Shown here: positions 30,060 to 40,660 of the stretch, piece by piece
Numbering within the stretch: position 1 is the first letter of the stretch
Layout of the letters: the number at the start of each line of letters is the position of its first letter
Assembly (NCBI GenBank): GCA_943788755.1
Contig: CALSRM010000004.1
Span: forward strand, 124,001-188,000
Length of the DNA stretch: 64,000 nucleotides
Origin: an uncultured Flavobacteriales bacterium
Lineage (GTDB): Bacteria; Bacteroidota; Bacteroidia; Flavobacteriales_D; Parvicellaceae
Direction of reading: 5' to 3'
Notes under the pieces: generated by a model
Seen by the model: the letters and a program-made list of their open reading frames with translations, nothing else
What the model was told of the DNA's origin: nothing
The model's database searches: none
Translations under genes and position numbers: made by a program

Positions 30060-31310
30060 CTAAACCAAAAATTGGAATAAATCTGGTTTGTCGTTCAAGT
30101 ATTCACCAAAAAAACCCTTTTCTTTCATTCTTTGCTGAAGCGCATCAAGTGTTGAAGAATTTTCAAGCTCTACTCCGACTACAGCTGGTCCCATATTCCG
30201 ATTGTGTTTTTTTGTATACTCAAAATGTGTAATATCGTCATTTGGTCCTAAAATATCTGCTACAAATTCTTTCAATGCCCCTGCTCTTTGCGGAAAACTT
30301 ATTATGAAATAGTGTTTCAAATTTGCATGTAAAAGAGCTCTCTCCTTAATCTCCTCAGTTCGTGTTATATCGTTATTACTACCACTGACCAAGCAGACAA
30401 CATTCTTCCCTTGTATCTCATCTTTAAATTGATTCAGTGCAGCTATAGTAAGTGCCCCTGCCGGCTCCACAACAATTGCATCTTTATTGTACAAATCAAG
30501 TATCGTTTGGCATACTTCCCCTTCTTTTACAATAGCCATGCCTGATAAATACTGCTGACAAAGGTCAAAATTTAAATCCCCTACTCTTTGAACAGAAGCT
30601 CCATCTATAAATTTATCAATGTGATCTAATTTAACATTAACCCCCTTTTCTAAAGAAGTCGACATGGAAGGTGCGCCAAATGGTTCAACTCCTATGACTT
30701 TTGTATTTGGAGATAACTCATTAAAGATGGATGACATGCCAGCAGCAACTCCTCCTCCGCCTACAGGCAAAAACAAATAATCTATTTCTTCTTTTGATTG
30801 CTCTAAAATTTCTAAGGCGATTGTCGCTTGACCTTCAATTACTTTTTCATCATCAAACGGATGCACAAAACTCATCTTATTATCCGCGCAATATTCTTTT
30901 GCAGAAAAGGAAGCATCATCAAATGTGTCGCCAGTTATTACAATTTCTATAAATGCACCACCAAACATTTTAACTTGTTCTATTTTCTGTTTTGGTGTTG
31001 GAGTTGGCATAAAAACTACCCCTTTTACTTTTAGTTTAAAACAAGAGAAAGCAACACCTTGCGCATGATTTCCAGCACTCGCACAAACCACTCCTCGATT
31101 TAATTGATCCTGCGACAAAGAAGCAATTTTATTATAAGCCCCTCGTATTTTATAAGACCTAACCTGTTGTAAATCTTCTCGTTTCAACACTATATTAGAT
31201 GAAAATTTTTGTACTAAATTCTCATTCCGCATCAAGGGTGTTTTTAAGGCAACATCGCTTAAAAGTATTGCAGCCTTTTTAACATTCTCCAAACTAACTT
31301 GAGCTCTCAT
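30060..31310 (-). CDS. ilvA: threonine dehydratase (threonine ammonia-lyase)
   Basis: A 416-residue PLP enzyme that makes 2-oxobutanoate from threonine, the entry to isoleucine synthesis. It shows the PLP lysine in VRSYKIRGAYNKI (about residue 50), SAGNHAQGVAFSC, the glycine loop LPVGGGGVAAG and SGSNNDITRTEEI, then a single short ACT-like regulatory domain (YFIISFPQRAGALKEF). The short form with one ACT-like domain is typical of Bacteroidota. It is the last gene of the leftward ilv operon, 1 bp after ilvC. Confidence 0.93.
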   Translation of the reverse strand: MRAQVSLENVKKAAILLSDVALKTPLMRNENLVQKFSSNIVLKREDLQQVRSYKIRGAYNKIASLSQDQLNRGVVCASAGNHAQGVAFSCFKLKVKGVVFMPTPTPKQKIEQVKMFGGAFIEIVITGDTFDDASFSAKEYCADNKMSFVHPFDDEKVIEGQATIALEILEQSKEEIDYLFLPVGGGGVAAGMSSIFNELSPNTKVIGVEPFGAPSMSTSLEKGVNVKLDHIDKFIDGASVQRVGDLNFDLCQQYLSGMAIVKEGEVCQTILDLYNKDAIVVEPAGALTIAALNQFKDEIQGKNVVCLVSGSNNDITRTEEIKERALLHANLKHYFIISFPQRAGALKEFVADILGPNDDITHFEYTKKHNRNMGPAVVGVELENSSTLDALQQRMKEKGFFGEYLNDKPDLFQFLV

Positions 31311-31311
31311 C

Positions 31312-32790
31312 TTATTCGCTTAGTTCCAACTTTTTCATTTGGGTCATTGACAACCTTAACCTAGCGCCAACTTTTTCGATTGGATGGTTTTTCACCTTAC
31401 TATTTAATTCATCTATACTATCAACGCTAATGTAGCTTGGATTAAAAAATGGCTTACCGACCAGATCTTTATCGACTGAGGCGATAAAATCTTTCAATAA
31501 AGGCTTACATGCATGATTAAACAAATAACATCCGTATTCCGCAGTATCAGATATCACGCGATTCATTTCATACAACTTTTTTCTAGCTATAGTATTGGCA
31601 ATTAATGGTGCTTCATGCAATGATTCATAATAAGCTGATTCCGGCTTTATACCGTTTTCAACCATTGTTTCAAAGGCTAATTCCACTCCGGCTTTAGTAA
31701 ATGCTATCATCAATAAACCATTATCAAAAAACTCCTGATTAGATATGTTTTCTTCAGTCTCGATAGCCTTTTCAAATGCTGTCTCTCCCGTTTCTGCTCT
31801 CCAAGTTAACAACTCAAAATCATTGTTTGCCCAATCCTTCATCATCATCAAAGAGAAATCTCCAGATAAAACATCTTTCATATGTTTTTCAAACAAGGGC
31901 TTCATTAAGGCTTTCAATTCATTTGCCAACTCATTTGTCTTTAACTTAGATGAATCATCTAATCGGTTCATCATTTGCGTTAAACCACCATGCTTCAATT
32001 CTTCCGTTATAGCTTCCCAACCATATTGAACCAATTTAGAAGCATATCCAGCATCTATTCCATTTTCAATCATTTTATCAAAATAAAGAAGTGAGCCCGT
32101 TTGTAAGACACCACAAAGAATAGTCTGCTCTCCCATTAAATCAGATTTAACTTCAGCAACAAAAGATGAATTTAAGACTCCCGCCATATGGCCTCCGGTT
32201 GCAACAGCGTAAGCTTTTGCAATTTCTAAGCCATCACCATTTGGGTTGTTTTCTGGATGAACTGCGATTAATGTAGGGACACCAAAACCTCTTTTATACT
32301 CTTCTCTAACCTCTGAGCCTGGAGATTTTGGTGCCATCATTATCACCGTTAAATCTTCACGAACTTTCATCCCTTCTTCAACAATGTTAAAGCCATGAGA
32401 ATAGGACAAGGTAGCTCCCAATTTCATTAGTGGCATTACTTTACTTACAACATCCGTATGTTGTTTATCTGGAGTCAAGTTGATTACTAAATCCGCAGTT
32501 GGAATCATTTCTTGATACGTTCCTACTTCAAATTTATTCTCAGCCGCATTCAAGTAAGATTGGCGCTTAGTATCGATTGCCTCCTCTCTTAATGCATAAG
32601 CAACATTCAGTCCTGAATCTCTCATATTGAGCCCTTGATTTAATCCTTGAGCTCCACACCCAACAATTACGACCTTTTTATTTTTAAGTTTTTCAACTCC
32701 ATTGACAAATTCAGAGCTATCCATAAAATCGCATTTTCCAAGCTGCAAAAGTTGGTCTTCTCGTGATAGTAAATTGTAATAATTTTCCAT
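31312..32790 (-). CDS. ilvC: ketol-acid reductoisomerase, class II
   Basis: A 492-residue enzyme (long, class II form) that isomerises and reduces acetolactate or acetohydroxybutyrate with NADPH. The nucleotide loop is [21 protein letters not shown] (about 37-57) and the Arg/Ser-rich specificity loop follows ([11 protein letters not shown]). [32 protein letters not shown]-like [14 protein letters not shown] and the duplicated helical domain (AYESLHE-type [13 protein letters not shown]) complete the fold. It lies between ilvN and ilvA. Confidence 0.95.
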
Positions 32791-32803
32791 TGCTTCTATT
32801 TTT

Positions 32804-33337
32804 TTAATCTTGTGTATTTTCTAATTCTTCAACTATTGATTTCAATGTTTTCATGGGCTTGGTAATCGCTACTCTACCCGATCTGACAAACTCCAGCATG
32901 CCATAGGGCTCTAGCTCATCGAAAAGTGCTTGTGTTTCAGCTTTATGACCTGTTTTTTCAATAACCGTAAATGCAGGTTCAACCGACAAAACTCTAGCAT
33001 GGTGAGCTCTCACTATTTTCTCAGCCTCCCCGCCAGATAGCAATACTTCAGTAGGTACTTTGTATAAAGCTATTTCCTGATAAACCACCTCTGAATCCTT
33101 GTGATAAACAGCCTTAACCACCTCAACCTGTTTTTCAAGTTGAAGAACAACCTTCTTAACCATGTCTTCAGCTTCACTTATTACAAGTGTATAGCGATGA
33201 ATATTTGGTATTTCACTTTCTGATGCTGCAATACTCTCAATATTTATTTTTCTTCGAGTAAATATTATTGTTACTCTGTTTAGCATTCCGACTATATCTT
33301 CGGTGAAAACCGATATTGTATATCTTTCTTTTTTCAT
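32804..33337 (-). CDS. ilvN: acetolactate synthase small (regulatory) subunit
   Basis: A 177-residue protein with an N-terminal ACT domain ([31 protein letters not shown]) that binds the feedback inhibitor valine, and a C-terminal domain ([41 protein letters not shown]) that stimulates the large subunit. It begins 1 bp after the ilvB stop and lies 13 bp before ilvC. Confidence 0.94.
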
Positions 33338-33338
33338 T

Positions 33339-35072
33339 TTACTTTAGTCTTATCTCGCTCACTGAAGCTCCCGTTGGCACCATTGGAAAAACATTATTCT
33401 CTTTGCCAACTATTGCCTCTAAAAAATAGGCTCCTTTATGATTTAACATTTCCTCAATTGCATCAGCTAATTCCTCTCGTTTTACTACCTTTTTAGTTGC
33501 TATACCATATCCCGAAACAATCCTCTGAAAATCAGGGTTAACCATAGTTGTTGATGCATATCGTTTTTCAAAAAACATCTCTTGCCATTGCCTAACCATT
33601 CCCAAAAATTCGTTATTCAAGACAACTATTTTAACATCAACCCCATATTGAAACATAGTTCCCAATTCTTGAAGGGTCATCTGAAAACCACCATCACCAA
33701 TAACAGCAACCACTTGTTTATTTGGTTGGCCCATTTTTGCGCCAATAGCAGCTGGCAAACAAAACCCCATAGTTCCTAAACCACCGGAGGTTATCATGGA
33801 TTTCGTTTGTTTGAATTTAAAATATCTGCAAGACATCATTTGATGCTGTCCTACGTCTGTCACTACTATATTATTGTGATCGGACTGAACATTTATTTCA
33901 TTTATTACTTCACCCATTGTCATTTTTTCAGTTGAGGGGTAAAGCTCGTTTTCAATTACTTCCGCATATTCTTCCTTTTCTAATGCTCTAAATTTATTTA
34001 GCCATTCTGAATGGCTATTTTCTTTAACTATTTTAGATAATTCGAATAGCGCTTCTTTGGCGTCCGCAATAACAGGGATATCTGCATGCACATTTTTACT
34101 AACCTCTGACGGATCTATTTCTATATGTATAATTTTTGCTTGCTTTGCATACCTGCTTAAATCGCCTGTTATTCTATCATCGAAACGCATACCAATCGCA
34201 ATCAATACGTCACATTCGTTGGTGAGTTTATTAGGAGCATAATTCCCATGCATACCTAACATCCCAACATTTAAATAGTGATCCGATTCCAGGGCAGATA
34301 GCCCTAATATTGTCCAAGCAGAGGGTATCCCTGTTTTTTCGATAAAAGCTTTAAATTCTTTCTCAGCATCAGACAAGATTATTCCTTGACCAAACAATAT
34401 AAATGGACGTTTAGCGCTATTAATTAAATTAGCTGCTGCTTTTACCGAATCCAAATCTAATTTTGGTTTAGGTTGGTAGCTTCGCATTCCCGTGAATGGA
34501 ACATAGTTAAAATCTACTTTTCCAAACTGTGCATCTTTGGTGATATCCACTAATACCGGTCCCGGCTTACCAGAACGTGCTATGTAAAAAGCCTTTGCTA
34601 TTGCCATTGGTATTTCTTCTGCCCGAGTAACTTGAAAATTCCATTTTGTGACTGGCATTGAAATTCCAACAACATCCGTTTCTTGAAAAGCGTCCGTCCC
34701 TAATAAATGACTAGTAACTTGCCCTGTGATACAAACTAAAGGAGTTGAATCAATTTGCGCATCTGCTATTCCTGTTATCAAGTTGGTTGCTCCGGGGCCT
34801 GAAGTTGCAATACAAACGCCCACTTTTCCTGTTGCTCTTGCATATCCTTGGGCTGCGTGTACCGCCCCTTGTTCATGTCTTGCTAAAACATGTTTCAGCT
34901 CCTGTTCAACATCATATAATGCATCATATACAGGCATAATAGCTCCTCCTGGATATCCAAACATCAAATCTACACCTTCAGCAATTAAAGCTTGAACTAC
35001 TGCTTGTGAACCAGTCATTAATCCTAACTTCGGCATTGTATTTTTAACTTCTAAGGTTTCCATTTTATTCAT
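33339..35072 (-). CDS. ilvB: acetolactate synthase large (catalytic) subunit
   Basis: A thiamine-diphosphate enzyme of about 577 residues making acetolactate and acetohydroxybutyrate. It has VQALIAEGVDLMFGYPGGAIMP with the catalytic Glu in LARHEQGAVHAAQGYARATG, the FAD-binding middle domain, and the ThDP/Mg motif GDGGFQMTLQELGT with NNEFLGMVRQWQ near the C-terminus. I start at ATG 35072 (MNKMETLEV), one base after the ilvD stop; in-frame ATGs at 35084 and 35126 would run into ilvD. Confidence 0.95.
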   Translation of the reverse strand: MNKMETLEVKNTMPKLGLMTGSQAVVQALIAEGVDLMFGYPGGAIMPVYDALYDVEQELKHVLARHEQGAVHAAQGYARATGKVGVCIATSGPGATNLITGIADAQIDSTPLVCITGQVTSHLLGTDAFQETDVVGISMPVTKWNFQVTRAEEIPMAIAKAFYIARSGKPGPVLVDITKDAQFGKVDFNYVPFTGMRSYQPKPKLDLDSVKAAANLINSAKRPFILFGQGIILSDAEKEFKAFIEKTGIPSAWTILGLSALESDHYLNVGMLGMHGNYAPNKLTNECDVLIAIGMRFDDRITGDLSRYAKQAKIIHIEIDPSEVSKNVHADIPVIADAKEALFELSKIVKENSHSEWLNKFRALEKEEYAEVIENELYPSTEKMTMGEVINEINVQSDHNNIVVTDVGQHQMMSCRYFKFKQTKSMITSGGLGTMGFCLPAAIGAKMGQPNKQVVAVIGDGGFQMTLQELGTMFQYGVDVKIVVLNNEFLGMVRQWQEMFFEKRYASTTMVNPDFQRIVSGYGIATKKVVKREELADAIEEMLNHKGAYFLEAIVGKENNVFPMVPTGASVSEIRLK

Positions 35073-35073
35073 T

Positions 35074-36744
35074 TTAAAATTCATCTGTAACGCACCCTTC
35101 AGAGGCACATGAAACGGTTCTAGCATATTTATACATTACTCCTTTATTAAACTTTAATTCAGGAGCTTTCCATTTAAGCTTTCTTATTGCTAATTCTTGA
35201 TTAGAAACGTTCATATCTATTGTGTTTTTAACAGCGTTTATAGTTATGATATCTCCATTTTCTAATAATGCAATAGGACCCCCATCTTGCGCTTCTGGAG
35301 ATACATGTCCAACAACAAAACCGTGCGAACCACCAGAAAATCTACCGTCTGTTATCAAGGCAACATCGTTACCTAGACCAGCACCTATTATGGCAGCAGT
35401 TGGTTTTAACATTTCAGGCATTCCTGGCCCCCCCTTTGGACCTTCATAACGGATTACTACAACATCTCCTTTTTTCACCTCTCCCTTTCGGATTCCATCG
35501 GTAGCTTCATACTCAGAATTAAATACCCGAGCTGGCCCAATGAATTCTAGTCCCTCTTTTCCGGTGATTTTTGCGACAGCTCCTTTTGGAGATATATTCC
35601 CTTTTAAGACACGTAAATGACCAGTTGTTTTTATTGGATTATCTAAACTCCGGATTACTTTTTGACCAATTATTAAACTAGGTACATTTTTTAAATTTTC
35701 TGCTAAAGTTTTACCAGTCACCGTTAAACAATCACCATGCAGCATGTCATTTTCCAACATGAATTTTAATACTGCAGGAATTCCTCCAGCCTGGTGGACA
35801 TTCTCCATTAAAAATTCTCCACTTGGTTTTAAGTCTGCTAAAAATGGCGTAGAATCCGATATCTTTTGAAAATCATCCAATTTAAAATCTACATCGGCAG
35901 CCTTAGCAATTGCAAGAAAATGTAAAACAGCATTTGTAGATCCGCCCAAAACTGTCACGAGTCTTATCGCATTTTCCATTGATTTTCTCGTCACTATGTC
36001 CTTTGGCTTTATATCTTTCTCAAGCAACAAATGCATAGCTTCACCAGCCTTTACACTTTCTGTTTTCTTTTCAAAGCTCAAAGCCGGATTAGAAGAATTG
36101 TAAGGCAATGACATCCCAAGTGCTTCTATTGCTGATGCCATCGTATTTGCAGTATACATACCTCCACAAGCACCAGCTCCAGGACAAGCTTTTTTTATTA
36201 CCTCTTTGTACTCCTTATCATCAATCGTTCCAGCAACTTTTTGACCCCATGCTTCAAATGCTGAAACCACATCCAGTGGTTTATCATTATGACAACCAGA
36301 GGCAATCGTCCCACCATAAACCAATATGCTGGGCCTATTTAACCTCAACATTGCTATTAATGCTCCTGGCATATTCTTGTCACAACCAACTACAGTCACC
36401 AAACCATCATAAGACATAGCCTCGACTACGGTTTCCATAGAATCCGCTATGACATCTCTTGATGGAAGAGAAAATCGCATTCCAGGAGTACCCATTGATA
36501 TACCATCACTAACGCCTATTGTGTTAAAAACCAATCCTACTAAATCTGCATTTTTTGTGCCGTGCTTGACCTTTTGGGCAAGATCGTTCAAATGCATGTT
36601 ACATGGATTACCCTCATACCCTGTGCTAGCAATTCCAACAAATGCTTTAGAAAAATCTTCTTCCGTAAGACCTATTGCATGCAACATTGCCTGAGCCGCT
36701 GGCTGAGAATCATCTTGTGTTACTCTTTTGCTAAACTTATTCAT
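35074..36744 (-). CDS. ilvD: dihydroxy-acid dehydratase
   Basis: A 556-residue iron-sulfur dehydratase that makes the 2-oxo acid precursors of valine and isoleucine. Cluster and active-site cysteines are in [22 protein letters not shown] and [18 protein letters not shown], and the C-terminal part has [23 protein letters not shown]. It follows ilvE by 1 bp and precedes ilvB by 1 bp. Confidence 0.96.
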
Positions 36745-36745
36745 T

Positions 36746-37636
36746 TTATACTAATTCAAATTGTTTGTATTCCTTCTTTCTAACACGGTTTTGATAAGCA
36801 TTTGCCAAATCGAACCCCATGGTGTCTTCCCAATTAAGACTAAACTTGTGATTATCTAAACTCTCTATACCTGCAACTTCAGCTGCAGTTCCTGTAAAGA
36901 AAGCACCATCAGCATCGTGGACTTCTTCCGGAGTGAAAAACTTCTCTTCCAATTCAAAACCTAACTCATCAGCAAGCTCAAATATAGTTTGTCTGGTTAC
37001 TCCATTTAATATATTTCCCACAGGAGCGGTAAAAAGCTTACCATCTTTTTCATAAAAGAAATTTGCGCCCGGCCCCTCAGCAACGTTTTCATGCATATCT
37101 AGCAATAAAGCTTCATCAAATCCTTTTTGTTTTGCTTCAGTAGTTGCTAAAATAGAATTTGTATAGTGCCCTGTCACTTTCGCTTCAACAAAACATGATT
37201 TGGGATTTGGCCTTTGAAAAGAAGAAGTCATTAAACGCAATTGAGAATCGCCCAAATATTTACCCCATTCCCAAGCAGATAGCATAATATGAACATCTGC
37301 GTTTGGCTGCAGCGCCATATTTGCTCCGAGATAAACCAAAGGTCTGATGTAGGCATTATCCAATTTATTCTTTTCTAATAATTCATACGTAAGGTTCGTC
37401 AAATCTTCCACCGAATATTCTAATTGGATGTGCATTTTCTCTGCAGAATAGCGTAACCTTTCATAATGCTCCTTTGCTTTAAAAACTTTTGCTCCATCTT
37501 CTGTTTTATAAGACCTAATTCCTTCAAAAACTCCAGCACCATAATGTAAAGTTTGTGAATAAAGATCCGTAGATGCTGATTTGGCTTTTACCCACTTACC
37601 ATCCAAATAGATTATAGTTTCTTCGTTGTAATACAT
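36746..37636 (-). CDS. ilvE: branched-chain amino-acid aminotransferase
   Basis: A 296-residue fold-type IV PLP enzyme that carries out the last step of valine, leucine and isoleucine synthesis. It shows [14 protein letters not shown] near residue 35, the PLP lysine in [17 protein letters not shown] (about 155-171), [17 protein letters not shown] and [15 protein letters not shown]. It is the first structural gene of the ilv operon. Two leader peptides and two terminators lie in front of it, so its expression should depend on branched-chain aminoacyl-tRNA supply. Confidence 0.95.
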
Positions 37637-37666: not shown

Positions 37667-37700
37667 AAAAAAAAAGCCTTTCTCTAGAGAGAAAGGCTTT
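37667..37700 (-). terminator. ilv attenuator 2 (terminator upstream of ilvE)
   Basis: On the minus strand AAAGCCTTTCTC and GAGAAAGGCTTT form a stem of 11-13 bp with a tiny loop, followed by nine T. It lies 28 bp after the stop of leader peptide 2 and 30 bp before the ilvE ATG. A GGAAG at 37719-37723 can compete for the CTTTC of the left arm (one G-U pair), a possible but weak antiterminator. Confidence 0.88.
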
Positions 37701-37727
37701 AAATATTTATTCAATATTCTTCCAAAC

Positions 37728-37784
37728 TCACCAAAGTGATGCAGAAATAATAATGACTATAATTATGTTCATTGTTTTGTACAT
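37728..37784 (-). CDS. ilv leader peptide 2 (Ile/Val-rich)
   Basis: An 18-codon frame encoding MYKTMNIIIVIIISASLW. It contains six Ile codons and one Val in a block of seven, plus Leu near the end: the regulated amino acids of the operon downstream. This is the classic design of a transcription-attenuation leader, in which a ribosome stalled for lack of charged tRNA-Ile/Val allows read-through into the structural genes. A perfect -7 element ends 8 bp before the ATG, so the leader message has almost no 5' untranslated part. A TCAC/GTGA mini-hairpin overlaps the stop. Confidence 0.82.
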   Translation of the reverse strand: MYKTMNIIIVIIISASLW

Positions 37785-37792
37785 TTCAATTA

Positions 37793-37800
37793 CAAATTTA
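37793..37800 (-). promoter_or_regulatory. promoter -7 element of ilv leader module 2
   Basis: TAAATTTG on the minus strand matches TAnnTTTG exactly and lies 8 bp before the leader-peptide ATG at 37784. No TTTG is present at the usual -33 distance, so the promoter may be weak or need an activator. Confidence 0.5.
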
Positions 37801-37880
37801 ACTCCTATTTTAACATTTCCCTACACTCATTATTTCAAAAAATAAAAAGTCTGATTTATCCATTCAAGATATTAAGTCAT

Positions 37881-37911
37881 AAAAAAAGCCATCCGATTGG
37901 ATGGCTTTTTT
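37881..37911 (-). terminator. ilv attenuator 1 (upstream terminator)
   Basis: On the minus strand GCCATCC, loop AATC, GGATGGC and seven T make a strong intrinsic terminator, with A-rich sequence on the other side so that it could also work rightward. A GGATG at 37929-37933, directly after the stop of leader peptide 1, can pair perfectly with CATCC (37899-37903) of the left arm. This is the arrangement expected of an antiterminator that a ribosome at the stop codon would mask. Confidence 0.85.
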
Positions 37912-37933
37912 ATAAATATTTATAATATCATCC

Positions 37934-37978
37934 TTATTGCCTGTGATTAATAATTGATATGATGTTTGCGTTTTTCAT
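37934..37978 (-). CDS. ilv leader peptide 1 (Ile-containing)
   Basis: A 14-codon frame encoding MKNANIISIINHRQ, with four Ile codons in six positions. It is preceded by a -33/-7 promoter ending 8 bp before the ATG, and followed by a perfect antiterminator/terminator pair. The module is smaller and less Ile-rich than leader 2, but its layout is the same. It could instead be a chance frame between the end of the 770-residue gene and that gene's terminator. Confidence 0.6.
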   Translation of the reverse strand: MKNANIISIINHRQ

Positions 37979-37986
37979 TTCAGCTA

Positions 37987-38019
37987 AAAATTTAAAACAA
38001 GTTATTTTTACAATCCAAA
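37987..38019 (-). promoter_or_regulatory. promoter (-33 and -7) of ilv leader module 1
   Basis: On the minus strand TTTG (38016-38019) and TAAATTTT (37987-37994) are separated by 21 bp, matching the Bacteroidota layout TTTG-N19-21-TAnnTTTG with one mismatch in the last base. Transcription would begin within a few bases of the ATG of leader peptide 1. Confidence 0.5.
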
Positions 38020-38036: not shown

Positions 38037-40352
38037 TTAAATTCTCATGATAGCGCTGTCTTGCTCCTCTTGCTTTTTAAACTTCTCTAAGAGAAGCTTA
38101 TAGAAATCAATATCATTATGAACAACGTCTGAATACTCAGCATAATCAATGGTTACACTTTTAACATTGACTACACACTTATCCAACTTACGTTTCAACA
38201 AGGACAACATTTTTATTTTGGTCTTCCCTTTAAAATTAAAATAAACAGCACGGATTAATTCCCCCATAAACCTTTCACATATATAGAAAGTTCGAAATGC
38301 ACTCAATAAATCATTTTCCGATAAAGTAGCATATTTATCTTTTAAAGGTTTAGCCACTACGTTTTTTTTTGAAAAGTTTGATTTGACAGGGTCAGTAAAA
38401 GAGCTAACCGTTAAGGCTAAGTTATTTTCTTCCATTCTAAATGATAAGGATGCATGCCTCAGCTCCGTAAACTCTTGTTTCCCTCTTGCTTCCCTCTTTT
38501 CTTCATCAGTATCCCCTGGATAATTATCTAGCTGCTTTACTGAAGATGAAATTAGTACTCCCCGTCTTACTTCACCTATTCCGTTTGCAATTAAATCCAA
38601 GTTAACATCTCCTCCATGAAGATAACTACTGTGTAATTGTTTACTCACTTCATACAATTCAACTGGATTCAATGAAAAATCACCTAATTCAAATTGATCT
38701 GAAGTAAATGCATCATCAAATTCTAAATAAAAGTCATTCGGTAACTTATCTTCTGGCTTCCCTGCTGTAACACCAACTTGTAACTGTACTTCATCTACAT
38801 ATTCACTAGTGGCATCAGTTCCAATCGTAATCACGCGCACCTTAAAATTCTGCGATTTTAATGAATCGGGAATTACAAAATTTTGCGTAAATGCATTAAA
38901 AGTACAGCCATCTGCATACGTGTAAACATAGCCAAACTTTGAATATTTCATCTGAAAATCTCCCATGAACATTTTCAATTCTGTAAGCCTAAATTTAAAC
39001 CGCTTCAACCTTTCTTCTTCAATTGCTAATCCCTGTTTGGATTTTTTCAATTGTTTTTCAATTTGAGGTTTACGATTATACAATGCAGAAAGTCTTTCTT
39101 GTAAAAAACTGGTTTTCTTTTGCGTTTTATTTTGGGCATATCGATTTTCATCTAATTCAAATTCTGTTTCCTTTATTTTCAACAGATTCTCTTCCAAAGC
39201 CTTTTTATAGTGACTTACCCAGTGTTTTAGACCAGCCTCTCCATTAATTTCATTGTCCACAAATGGAATACTTTTAAACTCCAAATTATTGATATTTGTA
39301 TGCAAAGTTTGACCATTTCCAAACGTAGAATCGGGAGAAAGTTCTTTTGATATTTTGGAAGCATAGAGTAAATAAGCTTGTCCCTCTCTAGTTACAACAA
39401 CTGTTGACTGTTGACGAGAATTAAACCCCCACATGCTAAAATGGATATTTGTATAGCCATTTTTCATGGCTTTAAATTCCCTTACAGTAGTTTGGTTTGC
39501 TACAATAGACTGCATATTTTCATTTCCAGAGACTATTTTCGTATCGTAAGTGAATAATCCTACCCCTTTTGGATTACCTAAGCTTTGCTTGTTACCCCTA
39601 ATCAATTCTTTTTCGTGGAGTAATCCTGCTGTTCCACTACCATCTCCCGCAGCCAACAAGATGCTTTTGTAAAAACCACTTTTACCTCCAATTTTTAAAA
39701 AATATTCATACGATTTGTTCTGAATAAAACTTCGAATGGATTCAGAAATGACATTGACTATTTCTTGTTGCTCCACCAGCTTGAAATTCTTAAGCTTATT
39801 TAACTCCTTGACTCTATTATTAAAAATAATATTTGGATCTAGAACATCCATTATCTCAGAAATTGGTATCCGTTTACTATTTTTTATACGAACTGCTTTA
39901 TCCGGAAGGTTGTTGGCTAATTCTCTTAAAAAATGGACATATACGCTATCCGAGATTCCTTCAATTTTTATTTCATCCCTTCTCTTAAGCTCACGATACA
40001 TAGTTTGTAAAGCCATTTTTGTTGCCACTTCAGAAAGTAGTCCTTGCGATGACTTTTTAAGTTCATTAAAATTCACTTCCAACAATGAAGGTTCGTATAT
40101 CAACACTTGCTCTATTGAGTCATAATCAATTATTGAATCACGCAGCTTTTCTCCTTTTCTTTTATATAAAAAATAGATTGTATCTCCTTTGTAATGAAAG
40201 TACTCCCCAATGTTACGATTTAATGCAGGGCTTTTAAGAATCACGTGAAATAAAATCGCTTTTTCTTCAGGCGTAAGCATACTGTTTTGACTCCAAGAAA
40301 AATTTGAGGTTAGCAATAGTAAAAACAATAAATATTTTCTTAATAGTTTCAC
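38037..40352 (-). CDS. large exported protein of unknown function
   Basis: About 771 residues. The GTG at 40352 starts a textbook signal peptide (MKLLRKYLLFLLLLTSNFSWSQ); an ATG nine codons upstream (40379) is the alternative. The mature protein starts with an acidic helical region (LTPEEKAILFHVIL), has a region of turns near residue 240-290 (LLAAGDGSGTAGLLHEKE), a coiled coil of about 80 residues (roughly 385-465, rich in Lys, Glu and Leu) and a beta-rich C-terminal half. There is no T9SS tail. I do not recognise a family. It precedes the ilv leader region on the same strand. The 308 bp upstream of the start to 40660 holds no gene. Confidence 0.7.
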   Translation of the reverse strand: MKLLRKYLLFLLLLTSNFSWSQNSMLTPEEKAILFHVILKSPALNRNIGEYFHYKGDTIYFLYKRKGEKLRDSIIDYDSIEQVLIYEPSLLEVNFNELKKSSQGLLSEVATKMALQTMYRELKRRDEIKIEGISDSVYVHFLRELANNLPDKAVRIKNSKRIPISEIMDVLDPNIIFNNRVKELNKLKNFKLVEQQEIVNVISESIRSFIQNKSYEYFLKIGGKSGFYKSILLAAGDGSGTAGLLHEKELIRGNKQSLGNPKGVGLFTYDTKIVSGNENMQSIVANQTTVREFKAMKNGYTNIHFSMWGFNSRQQSTVVVTREGQAYLLYASKISKELSPDSTFGNGQTLHTNINNLEFKSIPFVDNEINGEAGLKHWVSHYKKALEENLLKIKETEFELDENRYAQNKTQKKTSFLQERLSALYNRKPQIEKQLKKSKQGLAIEEERLKRFKFRLTELKMFMGDFQMKYSKFGYVYTYADGCTFNAFTQNFVIPDSLKSQNFKVRVITIGTDATSEYVDEVQLQVGVTAGKPEDKLPNDFYLEFDDAFTSDQFELGDFSLNPVELYEVSKQLHSSYLHGGDVNLDLIANGIGEVRRGVLISSSVKQLDNYPGDTDEEKREARGKQEFTELRHASLSFRMEENNLALTVSSFTDPVKSNFSKKNVVAKPLKDKYATLSENDLLSAFRTFYICERFMGELIRAVYFNFKGKTKIKMLSLLKRKLDKCVVNVKSVTIDYAEYSDVVHNDIDFYKLLLEKFKKQEEQDSAIMRI

Positions 40353-40660
40353 TTTGCTATTATAACAGAAAAAGGTCAAAAAAGGGACATTTAATAAGAT
40401 ATCTTTGTCAATAATTTTAAACGCGTTAAATGAATTTTGAAGACAACCCTAAAAGCATCAAATTCCATGAGAAAAGTTATTAAGTAGGAACCCCAGATCG
40501 TTTTAAGAATAAAAATTAATGAATGTTTCGGAAGTTGGAAAAAAGTTAAAAAGTCAGCACAAGGAATTCGGAAGGACCTAGATTATAGATTGAGGTTGAC
40601 TGATCGAGTCACTTTTCTTAGTTGAAAAAATTGAAAGGGCAAGGGTAACTTTATGCTTCT

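Follow-up and report, generated by a model that had tools for sequence, protein, structure and literature searches.

Two short leader ORFs, each followed by a terminator, lie in tandem on the minus strand of the window (the whole 64-kb stretch of DNA analyzed), between a gene encoding a 780-aa protein (38037–40379) and ilvE. As judged from sequence, the two modules very probably act as ribosome-mediated transcription attenuators in series that control ilvEDBNCA and sense charged tRNA-Ile and, in module 2, also tRNA-Val. In each module, a promoter-like -7 element is followed by a short ORF and then by a terminator; all elements were found at the positions, and with the sequences, given by an earlier sequence-only reading of this DNA (Table 1).

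The operon, read outward from the leader, has the order ilvE-D-B-N-C-A, and its products make Ile and Val (NCBIfam models over cut-off for ilvD/B/N/C/A: TIGR00110, TIGR00118, TIGR00119, TIGR00465, and TIGR02079, respectively). In the window's genome (G000), leuA does not reach its cut-off anywhere, and homoserine dehydrogenase has no match; hence, the organism may be able to make Ile and Val (with imported Thr), and not Leu or Thr. A close ilvE is absent from 29 of 39 genomes of the family. The minus-strand 780-aa gene, whose stop is at 38037, has no match among NCBIfam models; of the ilvE upstream regions compared, only those of the close relatives L001 and L002 include it.

Table 1. Features of the tandem leader region and the downstream operon.
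Feature	Position	Strand	Basis or remark
P1 -33 element TTTG	38016-38019	-	Sequence; TTG at the same spacing common in relatives
P1 -7 element TAAATTTT	37987-37994	-	One base off TAnnTTTG; L002 has TAAATTTG
Leader ORF 1 MKNANIISIINHRQ	37934-37978	-	ATG at 37978
Antiterminator 1, 5' strand GGATG	37929-37933	-	Pairs with CATCC at 37899-37903; -5.9 kcal/mol
Terminator 1, AAGCCATCC AATC GGATGGCTT and T tract	37881-37910	-	Predicted from sequence and folding
P2 -7 element TAAATTTG	37793-37800	-	L001, L002, and L022 keep TAAATTTG or TAGATTTG
Leader ORF 2 MYKTMNIIIVIIISASLW	37728-37784	-	ATG at 37784; core GTCATTATTATT conserved
Antiterminator 2, 5' strand CTTTGGTGAGTTTGGA	37721-37736	-	Includes stop codon TGA (37728-37730); -10.0 kcal/mol
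Inner A+U helix of antiterminator 2	37701-37719	-	Folding
Terminator 2, AAGCCTTTCTC ... GAGAAAGGCTT and T tract	37667-37700	-	Predicted from sequence and folding
ilvE, first gene of the putatively controlled operon	36746-37636	-	NCBIfam TIGR01122 over cut-off
ilvD, ilvB, ilvN, ilvC, ilvA, rest of the operon downstream	30060-36744	-	NCBIfam over cut-off

Structure of the Modules

Both leaders are rich in Ile codons and so match the product of the downstream genes, as the sequence and the NCBIfam gene identities bear out. Leader 1 contains four Ile and no Val, and leader 2 contains Ile and one Val. An intrinsic terminator, predicted from sequence, stands between each leader ORF and the first gene. 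In both modules the -7 element ends 8 nt upstream of the ATG, in agreement with the previous description. At P1, a spacer of 21 nt separates TTTG from TAAATTTT, while no clear -33 element was found for module 2.

Module 1 looks partly worn: its -7 element is imperfect, and its leader lacks a Val codon and is shortened, being five codons shorter than that of L004 due to an in-frame loss (judged by eye). L001 and L022 have lost the corresponding module by deletion. A second copy of GTCATTATTATT in the genome (L085) sits in unrelated DNA and was dismissed.

Occurrence of the Modules in Bacteroidota

A scripted search for terminators with an Ile/Val-rich ATG frame 15–40 nt before them yielded eight terminators on both strands of the 64 kb, and just the two described here have an Ile/Val-rich ORF. 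A stricter script found 123 modules in 126 ilvE upstream regions of relatives (at least one module in 90 regions, at least two in 31); the reverse strands, the flanking DNA (281 kb with both strands counted), and dinucleotide shuffles yielded none. Ile codons are favored by AT-rich DNA, for which the controls allow; that the two modules of the window are not due to chance was thereby confirmed.

Upstream regions of ilvE were collected from named genomes and from other genomes of the family and order, and 122 regions remained after removal of identical ones and those shorter than 450 nt. One module is found in 55 regions, two in 49, three in four (L035, L042, L047, and L146; L042 and L047 were scored from the listing of modules), and none in 14. 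Thus, the tandem arrangement, initially described as unusual, is not so in Bacteroidota, where 53 of the 122 regions have two or three modules. Since the carriers include isolates (Chryseobacterium, Pontibacter, Gelidibacter, Aureisphaera, Flavobacterium), the arrangement is not a binning artefact. The IlvE tree of 93 sequences requires at least 25 changes in module number, a rough figure, as some 0/1 counts may reflect missed modules; hence, modules are gained and lost. In L035, L042, and L047, modules 2 and 3 resemble recent duplicates. L032, labelled Candidatus Sericytochromatia, has a Bacteroidota-like ilvE, and its contig is probably misbinned.

The expected recurrence of Ile/Val-rich leaders and terminators upstream of ilvE in related Bacteroidota is borne out phylum-wide, with a fixed stop-to-terminator spacing (median 27 nt, 10–90% range 23–31). 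The leaders of 166 modules are Ile/Val-rich and keep their Ile/Val runs, though their sequences differ. In the leaders of the window's clade, GTC accounts for 31 of 50 Val codons (13 of 187 in ilvE), and ATT for 117 of 149 Ile codons (49 of 150 in ilvE); the Fisher p-value is about 1e-15 for each, with relatedness ignored. GTC is a rare codon in ilvE, and its use in the leaders is consistent with selection for codons sensitive to starvation; possibly, the preference for GTC stems instead from a constraint on the RNA sequence.

The motif TAnnTTTG is present 0–45 nt upstream of the start in 58 of 111 first modules (6.2% expected by chance, p = 6e-40), and before 4 of 55 later modules, which is at chance level (p = 0.45). 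Among 56 first-module promoters of relatives, 40 also have a TTG at the -33 distance, for which the background is 0.15. From these sequences, most relatives seem to have one promoter, with the modules in series behind it. The -7 element often ends 4–10 nt upstream of the start codon, so that near-leaderless leader ORFs are common. A second element, before module 2, is seen in all four observed members of the window's genus (the window, L001, L002, and L022). Of the previously proposed two promoters, both -7 elements are present in the window; however, they are not a general trait, P2 being confined to this genus. A clean deletion common to L001 and L022 (read by eye; junction ATAACT/AATCAGAC) has taken out leader 1 and terminator 1 together with the -7 element of P1. 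This leaves P2 as the sole recognizable promoter there, which argues that P2 is functional.

Antiterminator Pairing and Ribosome Position

The 5' strand of the antiterminator overlaps the leader stop codon or closely follows it, and is complementary to the 5' arm of its own terminator. The antiterminators are long hairpins, mostly with an inner A+U helix. Because the phylum-wide alignment of modules is too divergent for a consensus fold, we used arm-swapping tests. For 166 modules, duplexes with the own arm average -13.0 kcal/mol, compared with -8.8 (sd 0.19) for permuted arms, the lowest of 2000 permutations being -9.4; with one module per distinct arm (n = 37), the values are -11.2 and -7.6 (sd 0.38), the lowest of 5000 being -9.0 kcal/mol. 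In tandem pairs, the own arm is preferred by the proximal module in 50 of 52 cases and by the distal one in 39 of 52; hence, cross-talk between tandem modules is limited, not absent. In the clade alignment, the arm and the leader segment of L005 covary (GCUAUCC with GGAUA vs. GCCAUCC with GGAUG); for the same alignment, RNAalifold recovers the terminator, and the antiterminator as a fragment only.

In the window, the own-arm duplexes are weaker (-7.8 and -8.9 kcal/mol). The pairing of GGATG, right after the stop of leader 1, with CATCC of the terminator arm, already suggested from the sequence, was reproduced as a computed antiterminator of -5.9 kcal/mol (z = -1.4); module 2, too, has an antiterminator, which goes beyond the previous account (-10.0 kcal/mol, z = -0.85). 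Both are mutually exclusive with the terminators and are below typical strength, so this feature is weak in the window itself. On the complete RNA of the window modules, the terminator fold is more stable than the antiterminator; hence, the switch relies on cotranscriptional folding. Minimum free energy folds of the window contain no strong hairpin inside the leaders comparable to the enteric 1:2 protector/pause hairpin. The anatomy of the modules, their conservation, and the module-specific pairing are established by these comparisons.

To follow the ribosome, the nascent leader was folded without the 3' arm of the terminator, with the bases covered by the ribosome kept unpaired, under an assumed footprint that extends 12 nt beyond the A-site codon. 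Of 154 modules, 151 have at least five arm bases paired in the antiterminator when the ribosome is at the first Ile/Val codon, 149 when it is at the last one, and 9 when it has reached the stop codon; with a footprint of 10 or 14 nt, the outcome is the same, the numbers being 148 or 147 for the last codon and 26 or 7 for the stop codon (n = 154). In the window, the computed antiterminator of module 1 is kept up to codon 12 and lost from codon 13, and that of module 2 is kept up to codon 14 and lost over codons 15–18. Hence, the regulatory codons end where the ribosome starts invading the antiterminator. The choice of fold by a ribosome standing on the regulatory codons or on the stop codon is thus a computed one, under the assumed footprint.

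Proposed Mechanism and Alternatives

Ribosome-mediated transcription attenuation is by far the best explanation of these data; leader-peptide attenuation, put forward in the sequence-only reading, now draws on phylum-wide Ile/Val leaders, antiterminators specific for their own terminators, and computed folds that depend on ribosome position. RNA polymerase would initiate at P1 or P2, and the ribosome would start the leader almost at the 5' end. With ample Ile- and Val-tRNA, it would reach the stop codon and cover the segment there and beyond, allowing the terminator to form; on stalling among the Ile/Val codons, it would leave the segment free to pair with the 5' arm of the terminator as the antiterminator, and RNA polymerase would read on into the following module and, beyond it, ilvE. 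Transcripts from P1 would face two gates, and those from P2 one. If the read-through of one terminator is r in fed and R in starved cells, two terminators in series would let through r squared and R squared, so that the induction ratio of P1 transcripts, which pass both gates, would be squared. The stalling, the termination, and this multiplying effect of the series are what we infer. More generally, we lean towards a scheme in which branched-chain amino acid synthesis in Bacteroidota is controlled by one to three same-signal attenuators, minimal two-state switches with an antiterminator starting from the stop codon and often near-leaderless, where stacking multiplies the induction and module number is labile.

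Alternatively, the tandem could be not an amplifier but a logic gate, with module 1 sensing Ile alone and module 2 sensing Ile and Val. The different composition of the two leaders in the window agrees with this, and the mgtCBR leader provides a precedent for differing signals (PMC3641672); however, Val is present in the first modules of close relatives, and first and last modules are alike across relatives, the Ile share in the last 16 residues being 29% in the first and 38% in the last of several modules (36% in single modules), and the Val share 0.13 and 0.12. We therefore regard a logic gate as unlikely; the likeness in composition between first and last leaders suits the amplifier role better, as far as can be inferred.

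Slightly less probable still is that module 2 works alone, terminator 1 just ending transcription of the 780-aa gene and leader 1 being a relic. Module 1 does lie between the stop of that gene and P2, and both its promoter and its antiterminator are weaker in the window. It is also lost in L001 and L022. On the other hand, L002–L007 and other relatives keep a module 1 that has the same stem and encodes an Ile/Val leader, while only L001 and L002 have the upstream gene; L001 keeps this gene, yet has lost terminator 1; and the computed switch of module 1 still works in the window.

Control of the terminators by a riboswitch, a T-box, or an RNA-binding regulator, with the ORFs being incidental, is highly improbable: riboswitches also have terminators with alternative folds, but the conserved features here are limited to the Ile/Val codons, the position of the stop codon, and self-complementary arms of widely differing sequence, the gap of about 27 nt leaves little space for an aptamer, and no Rfam 15 family reaches the gathering threshold in the window or in the scanned ilv leader regions of relatives. 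Among known Rfam amino-acid leader families, the best score in the window is that of Phe_leader, 35.9 bits, below the threshold of 55. Matches at a permissive E-value (AT-rich leaders, sRNAs) are sub-threshold and were treated as chance.

Comparison With Known Systems

Enteric ilvGMEDA and ilvBN have leader-peptide attenuators. They share with the attenuators proposed here a short leader ORF rich in branched-chain amino acids, a terminator before the ilv genes, and a fold set by ribosome position; in contrast, Bacteroidota have one to three modules in series, would need only two alternative folds, place the antiterminator strand at the stop codon of the leader, and have leaders with mostly Ile and Val and little Leu. 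In Corynebacterium (Actinobacteria), an upstream ORF rich in branched-chain amino acids likewise controls ilvBNC, but there is a single attenuator, modelled with three hairpins (PMC10272879, PMC11857589); this leader is reportedly made without a ribosome binding site, according to the title of a work cited in PMC11857589. The mgtCBR leader of Salmonella also combines two ORF-based attenuators and was termed a singular example of tandem attenuators; however, its signals are unlike (ATP and proline), (PMC3641672), whereas both ilv modules would sense the operon product, and each has its own intrinsic terminator. The Bacteroid-trp motif (RF01692), named for trp, is a candidate cis-regulatory RNA of Bacteroidetes (PMC2864571), but belongs to another operon and has no match here at the gathering score.

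According to a survey of 2010, leader-peptide systems had been known only in Proteobacteria and Actinobacteria, to which the survey added Firmicutes (PMC2965389); in the open-licence papers searched, we found no description of Bacteroidota ilv leaders. The class of mechanism is already known; provisionally new are the serial same-signal attenuators with the antiterminator at the stop codon and near-leaderless leader ORFs, phylum-wide upstream of ilv in Bacteroidota. This suggests a separate, simpler attenuator design; the stacked like switches constitute a natural test of the effect of stacking on a genetic response, and more than 100 sequences are available to help recognize leader ORFs absent from annotation.

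Single checks upstream of hisG and trpE in G000 identified two further leaders, each downstream of TAnnTTTG. The hisG leader (L148, G000:C1; hisG at L148:1351) encodes MNLKKLHHHHFYNCSQASGK, with four His, after TATAGATTTG, and is followed by the terminator AACCCGTCTGAGTAAATCAGGCGGGTT; the trpE leader (L149, G000:C4) encodes MKNLKSNNYWWSAKHNVSQIG, with Trp-Trp, after TTAACTTTG, and is followed by a terminator. They are predicted to be His and Trp attenuators, respectively, and since they precede hisG and trpE in the same genome, leader-peptide attenuation seems to be a general device in this organism.
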